Of a DNA stretch of 6,617 nt, positions 1 through 6,617 are shown piece by piece. This DNA comes from Candidatus Hodarchaeota archaeon (GTDB taxonomy: Archaea; Asgardarchaeota; Heimdallarchaeia; Hodarchaeales; YT1-057), in the NCBI GenBank assembly GCA_016839955.1, contig JAEOTI010000246.1, forward strand, positions 1-6,617, read 5' to 3'. The translations under genes and the position numbers were made by a program. A model generated the notes under the pieces. The model was given only the letters and a program-made list of their open reading frames with translations. It was not told the DNA's origin and made no database searches. The first letter of the stretch is position 1; every line of letters begins with the position of its first letter.

Positions 1-658
1 GTTAATTTGGCAGGCTTTATCTATTCGGGGTTCTAATTTACCCACAGACGAATTTGAAAGGCTAGAATACTTAGGTGATGGATTATTAGATTGTGTTACT
101 AGTATCATTCTTTATGATCAGTCTAATGGACTGCCTCCAGAGGAATTAACACGTTATCGTTCTATTCTAACAAATAACACAAATCTTGCTAAAATTGCAA
201 AAAGCTTAAACCTAGATGAAATAGGAAAACTTCTAGGAATGGGAAAATTAAGTCCAGGCCAAGCAGCAGATTCTTTTGAGGCATTAGTAGGTTCAATCTT
301 TATTGATACTAATCGAAATTTTGACAAGACATTAGAATTAGTAAGTGAAATTGCACAATTCAATGACAGGTTAGAAGCAATTCGTCAAAGTCCTTGGGGT
401 ACTAAAGATCCTAAATCGTTCTTGCATGAGTGGGTTCAACAGGAATATAAGAATGAAGCTGATGTCATCTATGATGACAGGAATGAAGGAACAGCTAATG
501 CTCCCGAATTTTATGTAAAAGCACTTATTGAGAAAAAAACTGATCGAGAAAAGATGTTCGAAGGAGAAAGTGTTGGCCCCTTTTCAAGAAAGAAACACGC
601 TGAAAAGGAAGCATCAGAATCGTTATTAACTTTATTAAGAGAAAGAGGTATTCTATGA
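1..658 (+). CDS. rnc: Ribonuclease III (RNase III domain + dsRNA-binding domain), 5'-truncated by the window edge
   Basis: An endonuclease that cuts double-stranded RNA, acting as a dimer with Mg2+. The frame is open from base 2 (218 visible residues), so the true start lies upstream; compared with ordinary RNase III only the first 25-35 residues seem missing. The family signature is seen at visible residues 19-26 (ERLEYLGD, bases 56-79), which supplies the equivalents of E. coli E38, E41 and D45. The second catalytic motif, DSFEALVG (D at 269-271, E at 278-280), supplies D114 and E117. The nuclease core is therefore expected to be active. A canonical dsRNA-binding domain follows at about bases 407-640. 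It starts DPKSFLHEW and ends in the lysine-rich SRKKHAEKEAS helix that contacts RNA. The stop TGA is 22 nt before the Argonaute start, so the two are probably co-transcribed. An internal ATG at 239 is not the start, because the catalytic motif lies before it. Identification is firm; a defence or RNAi role rather than rRNA processing is inferred from context. Confidence 0.95.
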   Translation, partial: LIWQALSIRGSNLPTDEFERLEYLGDGLLDCVTSIILYDQSNGLPPEELTRYRSILTNNTNLAKIAKSLNLDEIGKLLGMGKLSPGQAADSFEALVGSIFIDTNRNFDKTLELVSEIAQFNDRLEAIRQSPWGTKDPKSFLHEWVQQEYKNEADVIYDDRNEGTANAPEFYVKALIEKKTDREKMFEGESVGPFSRKKHAEKEASESLLTLLRERGIL

Positions 659-669
659 GGAATATTGTT

Positions 670-677
670 GGTGGATC
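670..677 (+). promoter_or_regulatory. Ribosome binding site of the Argonaute gene (supports GTG start at 681)
   Basis: GGTGGATC is close to the Shine-Dalgarno complement of the 16S rRNA 3' end (GGAGGTGATC) and lies 3 nt before the GTG at 681. The Argonaute frame has a stop at 636-638 and no ATG between it and 681, so this site decides the start. The overlapping ATG at 679-681 is in another frame and stops after two codons. Confidence 0.6.
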
Positions 678-680
678 GAT

Positions 681-2987
681 GTGTTAGATACTCAAAAAAA
701 TAGGACTTCCTTTATTCTGAATACTGCTCGTATCTCTTCTACTTGGAATTCAACTTGGGGGATTTTTGAAGCCCATTTTGAAGATTGGGTCGATGAATAC
801 TATAGAAAAATTATTGATTTTCGAAGAAATTTTCATAATGATGATTTTATTTTAGAATCTTATGGGAGGTTTCTTATTTCCATCCCAATTAGCCAAATAG
901 TTTTGACTAATGTTAAAGAGCTTCTAAAAAACGCTTTATCAGAAGAATTCAGTCAACAGGTGGAATTAACTCAAATTCCTACCCCTTCACCTACAGAGAA
1001 AGTCCAACCTGATATTTTAAACGCTTTACGGAATGCTCTTGGTGGATATTTAGCCCATCGCCTTAAGGAGTTAGGATTTGAAAAAGTATCTTCCAAAGGT
1101 ACAATTGGCCGTTTTTTCCATCCAAAATTATCAAAAATAGAGAATCTACGTGAAAGATCTTCAGATGTAACGTTAAAATCGTTATTTGAATTTACAGCCT
1201 TATTAGAACGAAAAGTAGCATCAATTGAAGCTCACTTAGCAATTGATTTGAAGACTGAAGTTGAAGGACAAGAAACATTAGAAGAATTGATATTTGATAA
1301 AGGTGGAATACAGGATATCAAGTACTGGCCCAGTGATCAAAAGAATTGGTTTATCAAGAGCGAGGATGACATTCCAAAGGAATTAAGAAAGTATTCTAAT
1401 TATCGTCTACGGTTAACAAGTGTTGAAAAAAGAGAAATTGGAATTAATAAACCACTTAATATCGTAAGATATAATCCATATAAATCTATGACAGTAAAAG
1501 AGTTTCTTTCACATCAAAACACAACATTACCAGAGTTCAGGTACATAGCTGTAGTTAAAGATAAGTCAGGATCATTTAGCGATCCAAACACTGAATATCG
1601 TCTTCCAGCTATCTATTTACAACATAATATCTCTAATAGTTCTCTCAAGCATAAAAAATGGGAAAGAAAATTTCATCGTTTCTCAAAACCTCCATTAAAA
1701 GAACGTTATCAACGTATAACAGAGGTCTTTAGATTATTGAAAAATGAAGGACTAGTCGAAGTTCCAAGAAGGTTCAGCGGAATTAAACCGAAGATTGCTT
1801 TCCCCACGATACGAGGTCAGAGTGAAAATGTATTTGGTAAACCTCCAAACATTATAGAGAAAGGAATTGATGAGTGGGGAAACCTAAAGAGAATCATGTT
1901 ATATTCTCACCGTAAAGACGAGAATATAGCAAATAGATTAAGAAGAGAACTGGAAAACCAATTCAGACTTATTAGTGAGGTATCAAGGGTAGATGTTCCT
2001 ACAATAACGATGATGAACCTTCCTAATAATCCAGCCCAATTGAAAGATCTAGCAGAGCAATATGATCCGAATCGTGAGGGAACTCTGTATCTTTTCATTC
2101 ATCGGTACGATCGAAATTATTATCGTAGAATTAAGAGTATGTTTACTCAAGAAAATCGGAAACCAGTCCAATTTATTAGAACCACCACTTTATCGAGATC
2201 GAGGAACTTTTTCGCTTTAGTTCGTACATTAATACCTCAAATTCTTGTGAAAACTGGAGGATTACCATATCGCTTGGGTAAAGCAAATCTCGAAAAGACT
2301 CTATTAATAGGGTTAGATAAGGCTAGAGATTCAAGTAGTACCCGTCCATCTGCTAGTGCGGGTGTTGCTGCTGTTACTCCAGAGGGACGCTATGTGTCCG
2401 CAGCTTCCACTCCCCTTGACAACACTAAACATGACAGTATAGACGTAGATAAGTTAGCAGAAGGGCTTTTAGAGGATTTGAAAGTTACATATAAAGATAA
2501 ATTGGATTATGTTGTAATCCTACGCGATGGTTCTCCTGAAGTAGCCCAAGCAGAAGTGGATCCTTGGAAAAAATATGTTAAAGAATATGGACTAGATATG
2601 ATCTTCCTAGCAAGTCGCAAGGAAAATTCTTATCGTGTTTTTCCATCAGAAGTGAAACTAGATGACAGAAGGCCTTATGAACTACCAGTAGTTCTTAATG
2701 AAAGCCCTTTACCAAGTGATGAATTTCTCGTTGTTGCATCAGATGCTCCAATAGGCACACCGAAACCAGTCGTCTATACACTTTTGGATAATTCAGTCAA
2801 TTTCACTCTTGAAGAGATTCAAACGAAAGTAATTGCTCAAATAGTCAGTATGTCAATGTTGTGTTGGGAATCTCCAAAACCGACTAGCCAACCACTTCCG
2901 TTACACTATGCTGATAAATTGGCAGGGTTTACTCAAATGGTTCAACAGGCTTGGCAAATATCAAATAAATATCCAATGTTTATCTAG
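681..2987 (+). CDS. ago: Long prokaryotic Argonaute with PAZ-like, MID and PIWI domains, probable slicer
   Basis: A guide-dependent nuclease that uses a short nucleic acid to find and cut complementary RNA or DNA. At 768 residues it matches full-length (long) pAgos. The N-terminal region is about residues 1-230. A PAZ-like segment spans roughly 245-320 and ends in YRLPAIYLQHN, resembling the YLP(L)E part of PAZ. A linker follows to about 400, then MID about 400-530 and PIWI about 535-768. The MID pocket for the guide 5' phosphate is seen as Y481, K485, Q497 and K524 (the lysine of VKTGG); the Y-K-Q spacing equals that of human AGO2 (Y529, K533, Q545). PIWI aspartates are D546 (LLIGLD), D616 (ILRDG) and D745 (LHYAD), a 70-residue D-to-D spacing typical of slicers. 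The glutamate finger, expected near residues 582-585, has no Glu; D585 is the best candidate. The C terminus is hydrophobic (PMFI), as in pAgos whose end packs into the MID pocket. It starts at GTG. Argonaute identity is firm; guide and target chemistry cannot be read from sequence. Confidence 0.96.
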   Translation: MLDTQKNRTSFILNTARISSTWNSTWGIFEAHFEDWVDEYYRKIIDFRRNFHNDDFILESYGRFLISIPISQIVLTNVKELLKNALSEEFSQQVELTQIPTPSPTEKVQPDILNALRNALGGYLAHRLKELGFEKVSSKGTIGRFFHPKLSKIENLRERSSDVTLKSLFEFTALLERKVASIEAHLAIDLKTEVEGQETLEELIFDKGGIQDIKYWPSDQKNWFIKSEDDIPKELRKYSNYRLRLTSVEKREIGINKPLNIVRYNPYKSMTVKEFLSHQNTTLPEFRYIAVVKDKSGSFSDPNTEYRLPAIYLQHNISNSSLKHKKWERKFHRFSKPPLKERYQRITEVFRLLKNEGLVEVPRRFSGIKPKIAFPTIRGQSENVFGKPPNIIEKGIDEWGNLKRIMLYSHRKDENIANRLRRELENQFRLISEVSRVDVPTITMMNLPNNPAQLKDLAEQYDPNREGTLYLFIHRYDRNYYRRIKSMFTQENRKPVQFIRTTTLSRSRNFFALVRTLIPQILVKTGGLPYRLGKANLEKTLLIGLDKARDSSSTRPSASAGVAAVTPEGRYVSAASTPLDNTKHDSIDVDKLAEGLLEDLKVTYKDKLDYVVILRDGSPEVAQAEVDPWKKYVKEYGLDMIFLASRKENSYRVFPSEVKLDDRRPYELPVVLNESPLPSDEFLVVASDAPIGTPKPVVYTLLDNSVNFTLEEIQTKVIAQIVSMSMLCWESPKPTSQPLPLHYADKLAGFTQMVQQAWQISNKYPMFI

Positions 2988-3015
2988 AAAAAACCTTTGG
3001 TAGAAAAAGTTTAAC

Positions 3016-3020
3016 GAGGT
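3016..3020 (+). promoter_or_regulatory. Possible ribosome binding site for the ATG at 3022/3025
   Basis: GAGGT lies 1 nt before the ATG at 3022 and 4 nt before the tandem ATG at 3025. The first spacing is too short and the second is marginal, so if this site is used, 3025 is the likelier of the two starts. It competes with the site at 3041-3045. Confidence 0.35.
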
Positions 3021-3021
3021 T

Positions 3022-5052
3022 ATGATGTGTCAAAATTTCAGAGGGAAAAATATGAAATGTAGGGAGAAAGATTGCCCCTTATCCTTCAATGATGAAAATA
3101 CATATTATTTTCATCTTATAGCAGATCATAATTTGATGATATGTCCCATTTGCCCTTCAACCTCTTTACGTCCACGAAATCTTCAACAACACCTTTTTCG
3201 TAAACATAAAATTGATTGGAATAATCAGAAGTTTGTTGACCTCTTTATTGAAAAATTTGGACAGGAAGACTCGCTGTTTGACTTCTTAGAAATAGTCAGT
3301 GGTTTTATTCCTTTAGATATAATGAGAAATATTACACGAAAGATGGTTGAATTATCTGGGGGCATAGATCGCCTTAACCGCCAGATTTCTATATCAATAG
3401 TTGATTTTGCAGGTGAATACAAAGTCTATGAGACTCCAACACTCGATGCAAGCGAATACACTAAAATTAGTGGGATTGAGGTATTTTATTACCAGCTTCA
3501 ATACGCAACAGGTGATATTGAAGAAGTAAAACATTTCTGGTATCAATTTGCATTGAGTCAGATTTCGGAATTTCGACAATTAGACTTTGAAACCTTTATT
3601 AATCTTATATTATTCGGATTAAACTTAAGTAGGACCTCTAAACTTTATTATAATGCAGTTGATGAACTCTATAGCATTGTAAAAAGAATAAATCATATAA
3701 AAAATGTTAAGATGAGAGTTAGAATACTCAACTTGGCAATAAATCACTTCTCACAGTTAGGGAGAAAAGAACATGCACTAGAATCTTTTCAGATCTTTAA
3801 AGACCTAGTTAATAATGAGGTTATCATAAATAAGAAAAAATTAACAAATCAAATTGCGATTATTGATTCGCTTCTTCAAGAAAACACCAGTGAAATCATT
3901 TTACTTCTAAAAGAGCATTCAAAAAAGTATCATTATGAATTTCCCATTCTCATAGCAAGAGATCAAATAACAATTGGAAATCTACTCGTTCAGAATGAGA
4001 AATTTAAAGAGGCAAGAAAAGAGTTTGAATTGGCATTTAAAATCTTTGAACAACAAAAAAATTTCAATCAATTTGTAAAAACAGGAATAAATCTTGTAAA
4101 AGTTCATTTGAAGCTCCAACAATATTCAGAAGCAATTAAATGTGCTAAATACACATCAAATACCACTAAAGAACTAAGGATCTCCTCTATATTGAAACTT
4201 AGTTTAGAATTTGGTATTTTAAATATTGATTATTTTTTGATCAAAGATCTACAACCAAAGACACTAGACGATATTAAGGCAGTTTTTAGAAAGATAAAAA
4301 ACGTTAGTGAAGTTATAGACAAAATAGAAGATGCTTTAGTATCTGGGGAAATGGATCACTACTCTCCTGAAGATTTAAATAAGATAGAAGCGCAAATTGA
4401 TACTTTCAAGAAATCTTTTTCAGATTTACACGGTAGATTCACTCAAAATGAAAATAAAATCATCACTAATGAGCTCATTCAACTTGGATTATCGACTTTT
4501 AGTTCTATTGACAAGAATTTTACTGTTCCAGATGCCACTTTAAGAGAGAGATTATACAACATTCTCACAAGTGCCGAAAAAGTCATTGGTTATCGTTTTA
4601 ATCATCCACACCTACTTTGGCAGTCTCTTCTAGACATTGAAAGCAAAAAGGGAACCAAAAAAGGAATTCCCTCACAAAAATTAGCTTTTTTAGGTGATGC
4701 TGCCTTAAAATTGGCGATTAGTGAAATATTGATGGAACACGGAGGAATTGACTCATCACTTGATGAATTATCAAAAAGACGTCAGAAAATTGAGAAAAAC
4801 GCGAATCTCAGTTTAATTTTCGATAGATTGGAACTAGATAAATATATATTGAGTAATAGAGATGTTCTTCCTTCTGATACCTTCTCTACTAACCTCGCAG
4901 AGGAGAACATAATTAAATGGAAGGGGACAATGGTCGAATCTATAATTGGCGCAATCTATTTCGATGGAGGAGTCAAAGCAGTCAAAAGATTCTTAGTTGG
5001 ATGGAAACCTCAACTGTTTGTAAATTTATCTAATGACAAGAAGGAAAAGTGA
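3022..5052 (+). CDS. Two C2H2 zinc fingers + TPR-like helical region + degenerate RNase III domain
   Basis: I know no named family with this arrangement. Residues 11-36 form a first C2H2 finger (C13, C18, H31, H36) and 41-62 a second (C41, C44, H57, H62), probably for nucleic-acid binding. Residues about 70-500 are mostly helical; 311-384 look like two TPR-type repeats (for example KFKEARKEFELAFKIFEQQ), suggesting a protein-binding surface. Residues about 519-660 are an RNase III fold, opening with IGYRFNHPHLLWQSL. The first signature reads QKLAFLGD (552-559), so the equivalents of E. coli E38 and E41 are Q552 and A555 while D45 is kept as D559. The second reads TMVESIIGAIYFDGG (636-650), so D114 is T636 while E117 is kept as E639. 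Cleavage is probably lost or weak, pointing to a structural or partner role, perhaps as a heterodimer with the upstream RNase III. There is no dsRNA-binding domain. It follows Argonaute by 34 nt. The start may be 3025 or, better, 3052 (666 residues), where the ATG has a well-spaced GAGGG and lies just before the first finger. Confidence 0.9.
   Translation: MMCQNFRGKNMKCREKDCPLSFNDENTYYFHLIADHNLMICPICPSTSLRPRNLQQHLFRKHKIDWNNQKFVDLFIEKFGQEDSLFDFLEIVSGFIPLDIMRNITRKMVELSGGIDRLNRQISISIVDFAGEYKVYETPTLDASEYTKISGIEVFYYQLQYATGDIEEVKHFWYQFALSQISEFRQLDFETFINLILFGLNLSRTSKLYYNAVDELYSIVKRINHIKNVKMRVRILNLAINHFSQLGRKEHALESFQIFKDLVNNEVIINKKKLTNQIAIIDSLLQENTSEIILLLKEHSKKYHYEFPILIARDQITIGNLLVQNEKFKEARKEFELAFKIFEQQKNFNQFVKTGINLVKVHLKLQQYSEAIKCAKYTSNTTKELRISSILKLSLEFGILNIDYFLIKDLQPKTLDDIKAVFRKIKNVSEVIDKIEDALVSGEMDHYSPEDLNKIEAQIDTFKKSFSDLHGRFTQNENKIITNELIQLGLSTFSSIDKNFTVPDATLRERLYNILTSAEKVIGYRFNHPHLLWQSLLDIESKKGTKKGIPSQKLAFLGDAALKLAISEILMEHGGIDSSLDELSKRRQKIEKNANLSLIFDRLELDKYILSNRDVLPSDTFSTNLAEENIIKWKGTMVESIIGAIYFDGGVKAVKRFLVGWKPQLFVNLSNDKKEK
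3041..3045 (+). promoter_or_regulatory. Ribosome binding site favouring an internal start at 3052
   Basis: GAGGG is followed by a 6-nt A-rich spacer and ATG at 3052, an optimal Shine-Dalgarno geometry. This start would give a protein beginning MKCREKDC, immediately at zinc finger 1. The ten residues between 3022 and 3052 contain no recognisable domain, so the shorter product is attractive; both could be made. Confidence 0.45.
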
Positions 5053-5125
5053 AATGTTATGTTGAGTATTCATGATGAAGGAATCCTAGATCAAATTTCC
5101 TAGACTTTTTAGGGGTTAAGGTGTT
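5053..5125 (+). other. Longest intergenic gap (73 nt), no clear terminator
   Basis: This AT-rich gap separates the zinc-finger/RNase III-like gene from the helicase gene. It holds a direct repeat CCTAGA at 5085-5090 and 5099-5104, and a feeble 4-bp CCTA/TAGG hairpin at 5099-5113. Neither is strong enough to call a terminator. A 14-codon ORF at 5059-5103 is not supported as a gene. Read-through transcription into the helicase is likely, although a separate promoter cannot be excluded. Confidence 0.4.
5111..5123 (+). promoter_or_regulatory. Ribosome binding site of the helicase gene
   Basis: Two overlapping Shine-Dalgarno-like blocks precede the ATG at 5126: AGGGG at 5111-5115 (10-nt spacing) and AAGGTG at 5118-5123 (2-nt spacing). 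The latter matches the 3' half of the consensus, where a short gap is expected. An in-frame TAA at 5117-5119 means 5126 is the first possible ATG. Confidence 0.5.
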
Positions 5126-6617
5126 ATGGCGTCAACAGATTTTGGAGACTTGGATAGGGATTACGATGGATTAAGCAGAAGAAATGCTACAATTATTCCA
5201 TTAGTCCTTTCATCAGATACCCGATTTTCTAATACAGATAGTTTTACAGCAAGAACACTTGGGGTTACTGACATAGTAGACAGAAAACCAGATAAAACAG
5301 CAGTCAAAAAAGCATTATTATCCAAATTAGGTGAGTTATTTCCGGGGAGTTCTGAAACAATTCAATTCCTAGTTGAGAATACAACTACTAAAGCTTTTGA
5401 CGGTGAAATGGCAGAACTGTTTGGTTTCTGGCGTCTTCGAATAGATCCTGCCACGCCAATGTATGATAAAACTGTTTTTAACAATCATTCGATTATTTTT
5501 GATTGTACAAGAAAAAAAGGGAGATTAAGAGTAACACGGATATCGTTACAAATGCCTTCTAAAAGACCATATCCCACTGAAGGAATTTTTGCTGGTCCAG
5601 TCAAATTAATGACGAGCGAAGCTTCAAGCGATTATTTTTTGACTAAAGAAGATTTTATATGGTTATTGAGCTTACCTAAACGAAGGAAAGCGTTGTTAGA
5701 AAGATTGACAAATTGGGAAAACTACCTTAATACTTATTTGGAGATTATAAAGTATAAACAAGCATGGATAGCCTTTAGAAACCTTGAAAGAATTAATGAA
5801 ACACAAGCAAAAATGCAGATTTCTACAATTCATTATTCTCAAAATGCTATGAAACGATTTTATTCTGGTGATACTGTTAGTCTTTTACATGAGACTATCC
5901 CTGATAATATAGATTGGCTTCCTAGTGATAGTGAGGCGGATCCGTTCCCGATAGGAGATATAGAACACGGACAGAGATTCAAAAAATTTTTTGAGACTAG
6001 ACCTCACCACAAGAAAGACCGTGAATGGATTGATTTACTGATCGATCTAAAGGATGAATACGTTATTTCAGAAGAAATGAATACTGAGAACGTCTACAGT
6101 TATGTACCAAGGAATCCTTTTGAAGGTTTACCAAAAGAAGGTCTATTGCTTAATTCTATATTTTTAGATCAATTGCCATTTACATTACAATTAAAAGCAA
6201 TAGGACGTCTTTACGAAGGACAAGCCGTTAATCCACGACTTGAAGATTTCATTTTTAATATTGCAGAAGCACGATTGCCCATACGCCAAGAACAAATTGA
6301 TCCTGAATCTTTGATTCGCAAAGACCTGAATCCAAGACAAATTGTTGCATTGGAACGAGCATTAAACTCTCCTGATATTACTCTGATTCAAGGCCCTCCA
6401 GGAACGGGAAAAACTACTGTAATTGCGGAATTATGTCATCAGATTGCCTTGTGGGGGGGGAAAGTCTTGGTAGCTTCCCAAGCCAATTTAGCGGTTGATA
6501 ACGCTTTGAAAAGATTGGCTAATCAGCGTGTAATAATGCCAATAAGAATTGGAAAACACGCAACAGAAGAAGGTCTTGATTTCATTGAAGAAAATGTTGT
6601 AAAAAGATGGTTTGAGA
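5126..6617 (+). CDS. UPF1/MOV10-like superfamily 1 helicase (AAA_11 type), 3'-truncated by the window edge
   Basis: An ATP-driven helicase or translocase on RNA or DNA. The frame is open from ATG 5126 to the window end (497 residues). The first helicase motifs are in order near the end: a Q-motif-like LNPRQIVALERAL with Q405, Walker A GPPGTGKTT at 423-431 (bases 6392-6418) and motif Ia VASQANLAVDNALKRL at 449-464. This set is typical of UPF1/DNA2/SEN1/MOV10-like SF1B enzymes; motifs II-VI lie beyond the edge. The first 400 or so residues match no domain I can name. Residues about 170-230 look like a long charged helix or coiled coil around LERLTNWENYLNTYLEI, as seen ahead of the ATPase core in some prokaryotic AAA_11 proteins. 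The gene lies 73 nt after the zinc-finger/RNase III-like gene on the same strand, so it is probably in the same operon. A run of eight G (6453-6460) sits between Walker A and motif Ia, and the frame is continuous across it. The helicase call is firm; substrate and subfamily are not. Confidence 0.92.
   Translation, partial: MASTDFGDLDRDYDGLSRRNATIIPLVLSSDTRFSNTDSFTARTLGVTDIVDRKPDKTAVKKALLSKLGELFPGSSETIQFLVENTTTKAFDGEMAELFGFWRLRIDPATPMYDKTVFNNHSIIFDCTRKKGRLRVTRISLQMPSKRPYPTEGIFAGPVKLMTSEASSDYFLTKEDFIWLLSLPKRRKALLERLTNWENYLNTYLEIIKYKQAWIAFRNLERINETQAKMQISTIHYSQNAMKRFYSGDTVSLLHETIPDNIDWLPSDSEADPFPIGDIEHGQRFKKFFETRPHHKKDREWIDLLIDLKDEYVISEEMNTENVYSYVPRNPFEGLPKEGLLLNSIFLDQLPFTLQLKAIGRLYEGQAVNPRLEDFIFNIAEARLPIRQEQIDPESLIRKDLNPRQIVALERALNSPDITLIQGPPGTGKTTVIAELCHQIALWGGKVLVASQANLAVDNALKRLANQRVIMPIRIGKHATEEGLDFIEENVVKRWFE

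Follow-up and report, generated by a model that had tools for sequence, protein, structure and literature searches.

Gene content of the Hodarchaeota locus

The window, i.e. the whole stretch of 6,617 bases analyzed here (contig JAEOTI010000246.1 of Candidatus Hodarchaeota archaeon), holds four co-directional genes, coding for an RNase III, an Argonaute, a zinc-finger protein with a degenerate RNase III domain and a UPF1-like helicase (Table 1). The linkage between Argonaute and RNase III genes is conserved in the family of the window's Argonaute, and it is also found in two other Asgard Argonaute lineages, those of HrAgo1 and of genome G120. The positions of the open reading frames bear out the arrangement and spacing given in the first-pass annotation of this DNA, and the identities proposed there for the four products agree with Pfam matches and residue comparisons. 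The same annotation likened the operon to a complete RNA interference (RNAi) pathway, which is not supported, as neither Dicer nor an RNA-dependent RNA polymerase (RdRp) was found in the window. Genes 1 and 4 are cut by the contig ends, and of the superfamily 1 (SF1) helicase only the part up to motif I/Ia is therefore visible.

Table 1. Genes and intergenic gaps of the window (aa, amino acids; nt, nucleotides; dsRBD, double-stranded RNA-binding domain).
Feature	Coordinates	Strand	Evidence
Gene 1, RNase III + divergent dsRBD, 5'-truncated, 218 aa left	2..658 (5' open)	+	Pfam, catalytic residues, tree
Gap gene 1-gene 2, 22 nt, operon-like	659..680	.	
Gene 2, Argonaute, 768 aa, GTG start	681..2987	+	Pfam Piwi, residue alignment
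Gap gene 2-gene 3, 34 nt	2988..3021	.	
Gene 3, 676 aa, two C2H2 + TPR-like middle + degenerate RNase III domain	3022..5052	+	Pfam, alignment
Gap gene 3-gene 4, 73 nt	5053..5125	.	
Gene 4, UPF1/IGHMBP2/MkoA-like SF1 helicase, N-terminal 497 aa	5126..6616 (3' open)	+	Pfam, PADLOC

In gene 1 (Pfam Ribonuclease_3, E 1.5e-15), the residues E, D, D and E, which we take to be the catalytic ones, are all kept in the alignment, while its dsRBD is divergent and weakly recognized (dsrm E 0.0016, 19.4 bits, under the 23-bit cut-off). The earlier description as a canonical RNase III with a dsRBD is thus adequate for the catalytic residues and less so for the dsRBD. As the two closest relatives are 257 aa long, the length of most full-length relatives, about 39 residues have been lost from gene 1. 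Its nearest named relative, 91% identical, is also from 'Candidatus Hodarchaeota archaeon'; 12 relatives share at least 45% identity, and all four that carry an organism name are Asgard. PF00035 is annotated in 5 of the 12 closer relatives (P0009-P0020). In the RNase III tree, gene 1 falls into an Asgard clade labeled AgoR1 here (support 100/99, 18 rows, among which P0020 and the G160 protein are nearly identical and hence not independent), distinct from the more common type of Asgard RNase III (99/98). The tree took in only part of the RNase III matches and left out G178 and one duplicate G110 row. Drosha was the first PDB match of gene 1, but we do not read this as pointing to kinship with Dicer, since its 57 bits are made up of two domains (30.1 + 21.6) and Aquifex RNase III scores 42.9.

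Gene 2 matches Pfam Piwi with E 7.7e-26, the PIWI domain lying at residues 470-750. The residues Y481, K485, Q497 and K524, the YKQK motif of the 5'-phosphate pocket in the MID domain, are kept in 12/12 family members, as are D546, D616 and D745 at the slicer positions. Near the expected Glu finger, position 580 is acidic in all 12 (D in 10, E in 2) and position 585 is always D. The nearest named Argonaute, 76% identical, comes from 'Candidatus Hodarchaeota archaeon'. The best PDB sequence matches of the family profile are PIWI proteins, and the same holds for the best fold matches of a weak structure model. No match to this Argonaute was found by tblastn among plasmids and phages. Scans of genome and viral contig sets with the Argonaute alignment confirmed no locus either, a negative that means little because each scan used two short peptide patterns and the one on genomes failed to pick up the Borrarchaeum Argonaute. 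Elsewhere, a haloarchaeal Argonaute gene on a Natrarchaeobaculum plasmid (L214) overlaps one annotated as phospholipase D-like.

The gene 3 product matches Ribonuclease_3 with E 4.4e-16, and its TPR and C2H2 matches are sub-threshold. Two C2H2 spacings occur at residues 13-36 and 41-62, with all eight ligands invariant in 3/3 homologues, and the RNase III domain is C-terminal (~516-660). At the positions we take to be catalytic it carries E to A, D, D to T and E, so two of the four are changed. A degenerate RNase III fused to C2H2 fingers, as previously described, is therefore correct for both parts but falls short of the TPR-like middle. The nearest named relative is from 'Candidatus Hodarchaeota archaeon' (68% identical), and the full-length protein was found only in the window, P0007 and P0008. 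In the tree, the RNase III domain clusters with a family of Asgard RNase III-like proteins ~235 aa long (94/94; 23 tree rows, L125-L154), and the four aligned members share the altered E and D positions of gene 3, where they carry LALLGD and [GA]TL.E. Gene 3 looks like a fusion version of this family. Its structure model was set aside as too weak (predicted local distance difference test score, pLDDT, 44). Gene 4 matches AAA_11 (E 9.1e-19) and has the Walker A motif GPPGTGKTT.

Conservation of the Argonaute and RNase III pair

Among the 227 Asgard genomes surveyed, Argonaute profile matches were found in 10 at E <= 1e-3, six of them strong (E 4e-120 or better). In three of the six (G034, G160 and G001, the last being Borrarchaeum weybense), the gene immediately upstream of the Argonaute codes for an RNase III of the same clade as gene 1, with 30-34 nt between the matches, and the paired Argonautes have diverged to 37-40% identity with that of the window. 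In G032 and G036 the contig breaks off short of this upstream position. A UPF1/MkoA-like helicase is the next gene after the Argonaute in three of the six as well (G034, G032, G036); it was not found in the Argonaute stretch of G054. Furthermore, genes 1-3 very probably recur together on two further contigs, their co-location being deduced from equal longest-contig figures (14,468 for P0001, P0007 and P0009; 79,419 for P0002, P0008 and P0010). Of the four-family linkage that the first-pass annotation suggested searching for, the RNase III-Argonaute pair and the UPF1-like helicase recur across genomes, while full-length gene 3 keeps to the three proteins named above. Since the pair is conserved and the helicase is a repeated neighbor, the locus is not an arrangement found in a single genome with no co-conservation.

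Of the 22 Asgard PIWI loci searched by tblastn, five have an RNase III at a distance of no more than 3.5 kb from PIWI, and four have a MkoA-like helicase (there were 23 PIWI matches, G186:C60 being left out, and several contigs were short, from 3.7 kb). The bacterial control of ten PIWI loci gave no helicase and one RNase III (L244, from genome G256 in the Chloroflexota sample), perhaps a housekeeping copy, ~4.5 kb from the PIWI gene (443-aa frame). A rough Poisson estimate, assuming genomes of 3.4 Mb and 170-400 RNase III loci, gives 0.04-0.08 RNase III neighbors expected within 3.5 kb among 23 loci against five observed, a figure that is indicative only, since the five loci represent three lineages. 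Both this excess and the retention of the pair despite the divergence of the Argonautes argue against fortuitous clustering, in which RNase III and Argonaute genes would travel together through a mobile or defense-island neighborhood without joint function. Such clustering could account for the patchy distribution, for the single bacterial control locus and for pairs arising from RNase III domains as widespread as these are (152 of the 227 Asgard genomes), but we consider it very improbable.

The pairing in G120 is weaker than an operon, as the two genes are transcribed divergently and are separated by a CARF/Csa3-like gene (below cut-off). At this locus (L166, G120:C19) the Argonaute groups with Nostoc and Chloroflexota Argonautes, the RNase III is of HrAgo1 type, and a NERD-helicase gene is found downstream.

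The remaining lineage is that of HrAgo1 from one Lokiarchaeon, 'Candidatus Harpocratesius repetitus', whose Argonaute gene has an RNase III-dsRBD gene and a helicase gene as neighbors (Bastiaanssen et al. 2024, Nat Commun; PMC11217426). Although this operon is termed unique in the part of that paper cited here, our results indicate that it has relatives. The paper was the only one with an Argonaute beside an RNase III to turn up in our literature search, which was incomplete, so absence from print is not claimed; in its cited part, PMC12624956 refers to the same paper for this arrangement. The first-pass annotation had known of no described system in which an Argonaute is paired with two RNase III proteins; HrAgo1 has one RNase III-dsRBD neighbor (PMC11217426).

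In our set, HrAgo1 is L191 (817 aa, an end-to-end match to PDB 8r3z with 1,857 bits), where rnc and ago are followed by a helicase gene (1276 aa), g4, g5, a radical SAM gene and an AAA gene cut by the end of the stretch. The order in G034, within the window's Argonaute family, is rnc, ago, helicase (1152 aa), g4, g5, DUF2997, a 175-aa gene, radical SAM and AAA. The two helicases are 34% identical over 865 aa, and matches were obtained for g5 (E 4e-13), radical SAM (1e-24) and AAA (9e-27), as well as for g4 (E ~5e-4 against G034 and 6e-6 against G032). By these matches, partner genes behind two Argonautes of the family have homologues in the HrAgo1 operon. In the g5 search, 13 of 17 genomes match only part of g5, and a hypergeometric p value for g5 was set aside, as three of the four genomes were rows of the query alignment (A5) and only G054 was independent. 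A second HrAgo1-type cassette (L239, G054:C297), on a contig other than that of the G054 Argonaute and cut upstream by the contig end, holds homologues of the helicase, g4 and g5 together with Pfam matches to radical SAM, AAA and DUF2997. Its helicase and g5 each lie in several open pieces, the helicase pieces being 35% and 46% identical to the neighbor of HrAgo1. At L191, L155 and L239 the cluster continues with a radical SAM (Fer4_12) gene and an AAA+ ATPase gene, and a DUF2997 gene with a 175-aa or 188-aa gene occurs in G034 and G054.

The Argonaute tree (40 rows) was built without AGO-clade proteins, MjAgo and PfAgo; fam_P0001, G036 and G111 were dropped from it, and G170, G003, Chl345 and Pse531 before alignment. 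The window's family is monophyletic (100/99), G162 being its sister (100/99), and HrAgo1, EfPiwi and Siwi form a separate clade (100/99). In this comparison with Asgard and eukaryotic sequences, which the first-pass annotation had called for, the family therefore stands outside the HrAgo1/PIWI clade, and their union (85/18) leaves a sister relation neither supported nor rejected. It also follows from the tree that two Argonaute clades occupy the same operon slot. The RNase III of HrAgo1 type likewise belongs to another clade (99/93), which includes the G120 and G087 copies. The window's locus is accordingly a variant of the HrAgo1-type Asgard Argonaute locus, with like partners, different Argonaute and RNase III clades, and an additional gene 3. 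As to the sister Argonaute, at L161 (G162:C425) it is followed by a Helicase_C_2 (DinG-like) gene, with a C2H2 zinc-finger gene two genes on.

The neighbor of HrAgo1 has been termed a HEDxD/H helicase with homology to the functional domains of Dicer (PMC11217426). Our comparisons point to a UPF1/MkoA-like SF1 helicase rather than a Dicer-like one. The full-length helicases beside the G034, G032 and HrAgo1 Argonautes carry the SF1 motifs GPPGSGKTT, DEAS/DESS, GDIxQL and NVAxTRA, and the best PDB match of all three is UPF1. MkoA is the best PADLOC match for 5/5 helicases scanned (window 6.7e-28, HrAgo1 locus 2.1e-80, G034 1.3e-78, G032 5.1e-81, G036 8.6e-35). MkoB, which is a phospholipase D (PLD) protein, had no match in the window, which ends inside the helicase, nor in the g5 proteins of the HrAgo1 locus and G034, the two that were scanned. 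At its N-terminus, the g5 protein of the HrAgo1 locus contains a stretch resembling PLD (PLDc_2 25.5 bits, cut-off 27); g5 was rejected as a Zucchini-like nuclease because the HKD motif is absent in three g5 proteins.

These matches raise the alternative of a Mokosh-like system joined by an Argonaute, in which the helicase would be the effector, handling or degrading viral transcripts, and the Argonaute and RNase III would provide recognition. Mokosh is described as degrading viral transcripts, and MkoA and MkoB as sharing domains with the PIWI-interacting RNA pathway (PMC11291487), to which the uniform MkoA matches and the PLD-like stretch of g5 would correspond. On the other hand, the lack of the HKD motif and of MkoB matches in the g5 proteins, as well as of such a helicase near the G001 and G160 pairs, makes this explanation unlikely.

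A candidate silencing module

From the gene identities, linkage and residue conservation observed here, we infer a scheme for guide production, nucleic-acid type and target cleavage, to which we assign a probability of about one half (0.52). The locus would represent a conserved Asgard Argonaute-RNase III silencing module, where RNase III feeds guides to the Argonaute, the helicase remodels RNA, and gene 3 is a non-catalytic partner. According to this scheme, the gene 1 RNase III would cut double-stranded RNA (dsRNA) into short 5'-phosphorylated duplexes, and these would load into the Argonaute, whose MID pocket has the canonical 5'-phosphate residues. In eukaryotes, helicases of the MOV10/Armitage type strip or remodel RNA or ribonucleoproteins, and by analogy the UPF1/MkoA-like helicase may do the same here. 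The PIWI domain, acidic at the slicer positions, could then cut the complementary target. At Hodarchaeota-type loci only, gene 3 would most likely partner gene 1 or scaffold dsRNA onto the complex. In the window and the four upstream regions examined, the inverted repeats that might serve as a source of dsRNA are short imperfect pairs only, the most complementary being an AT-rich pair of 22 nt in the rnc-hrAgo1 gap, and Rfam gave no match at gathering scores in the window, L155, L157 and L191.

The role of such a module would most likely be antiviral or directed against mobile elements. The rnc-ago pair of G160 (L157, G160:C109) is flanked by DUF1156, DUF499 and Helicase_C genes and by a MoxR-vWA pair, and a TIR gene lies near the G001 locus. 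We take all of these to be kinds of genes found in defense islands, and such neighbors favor a defense role. A vWA gene is also present near the G054 Argonaute (L160).

Several observations weigh against the proposed module. Its RNAi function is a prediction from gene content. No RNase III is present on the 6.8-kb Argonaute contig of G054, and the helicase was not found in the stretches searched in G001 (20 kb) and G160 (16.7 kb). RNase III of the AgoR1 clade occurs away from the Argonaute in three of the six strong loci (G001 second copy, G033, G178), that of HrAgo1 type occurs in G087 with no Argonaute nearby, and RNase III domains are widespread in Asgard genomes in general. The helicases of the window and G036 form a subfamily apart from those of G034, G032 and HrAgo1. 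In the Argonaute, most members have Asp in place of the Glu finger, with two candidate positions on which two alignments disagree, and the best single-sequence PDB match is the cyanobacterial DNA-guided CtAgo (9iad, E 0.024), PIWI coming next (0.12). As the supported clade of HrAgo1 and PIWI does not include this Argonaute, the RNA-guided RNA cleavage of HrAgo1 is not transferable to it.

It is also possible, although we hold it to be less probable, that the genes form a defense operon in which RNase III, together with gene 3, is an independent arm degrading or sensing dsRNA. The Argonaute would then obtain its guides by its own chopping or from RNA decay, and might act against DNA. Occurrence of AgoR1 RNase III without an Argonaute is what such independence would produce, and of the four genes G001 and G160 have just rnc and ago, among genes of defense-island type. 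Moreover, characterized prokaryotic Argonautes (pAgos) mainly use DNA guides and/or DNA targets, according to the cited part of PMC11217426. The position of RNase III as the first gene, directly adjoining the Argonaute in G160, G001 and G034, speaks for a closer connection, as does the separate pairing in HrAgo1 and, more loosely, in G120.

Comparison with known systems

RNAi has been viewed as a product of eukaryogenesis, built from separate components of archaea and bacteria, with RNase III rare in archaea (PMC5303251, in the part cited here). Set against this view, about two thirds of the Asgard genomes surveyed carry RNase III domains, and the gene set described here joins RNase III to Argonaute, at some loci with a UPF1-type helicase. 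With two Argonaute clades having homologous partner genes, an RNase III-fed Argonaute pathway in prokaryotes becomes a directly testable question. Extending the RNase III-fed module further, we suggest only tentatively that Asgard archaea, including the lineage nearest eukaryotes, possess self-contained dsRNA-triggered silencing, in which a dedicated RNase III supplies an Argonaute and a UPF1-type helicase with guides. The catalytically dead RNase III partner that would help it in Hodarchaeota might then be a split forerunner or analogue of the paired domains of Dicer, different Argonaute clades might plug into the same partner set, and the RNAi toolkit might have been assembled as an operon either earlier than eukaryotes or in parallel with them. 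We do not claim the locus as an ancestor of eukaryotic RNAi, because its Argonaute falls outside the supported clade of HrAgo1 and PIWI and its helicase does not resemble that of Dicer.

An RNase III, an Argonaute and a helicase of the UPF1 superfamily in one unit are shared with eukaryotic RNAi. The differences are the missing RdRp and the lack of a Dicer fusion, the RNase III being separate and single-domain. In Dicer, an SF2 helicase, PAZ and a pair of RNase III domains sit on a single polypeptide, whereas the window has separate genes and an SF1 helicase. Kinetoplastid RNA-editing proteins of the KREPB type combine a zinc finger with a degenerate RNase III domain and are thought to pair with an active RNase III. 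Gene 3 likewise has C2H2-type fingers and a degenerate RNase III, a likeness by domain description only; our literature search on KREPB-type proteins yielded no paper. The window's helicase shares the MkoA-type profile match with Mokosh, from which the locus differs in that the helicase is paired with an Argonaute and an RNase III.

With long prokaryotic Argonautes, gene 2 shares its length, a Foldseek coverage of ~700 columns, the YKQK MID motif and an acidic active site. In the cited part of a survey of pAgo operons (PMC6299218), no Argonaute-RNase III pairing was found, RNase III being named once, in the Discussion. Among the closest known systems is also the HrAgo1 locus, with which the window shares rnc upstream of the Argonaute and a UPF1/MkoA-like helicase downstream, and with which G034, of the window's Argonaute family, shares the homologous helicase, g4, g5, radical SAM and AAA genes. 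The two Argonautes, of different clades, are ~21% identical over 303 residues of the PIWI region, the last slicer residue is H in HrAgo1 and D in the window, and the RNase III proteins belong to different clades as well. Finally, the zinc-finger/degenerate-RNase III gene is an extra of the window, whose helicase also belongs to a different subfamily.

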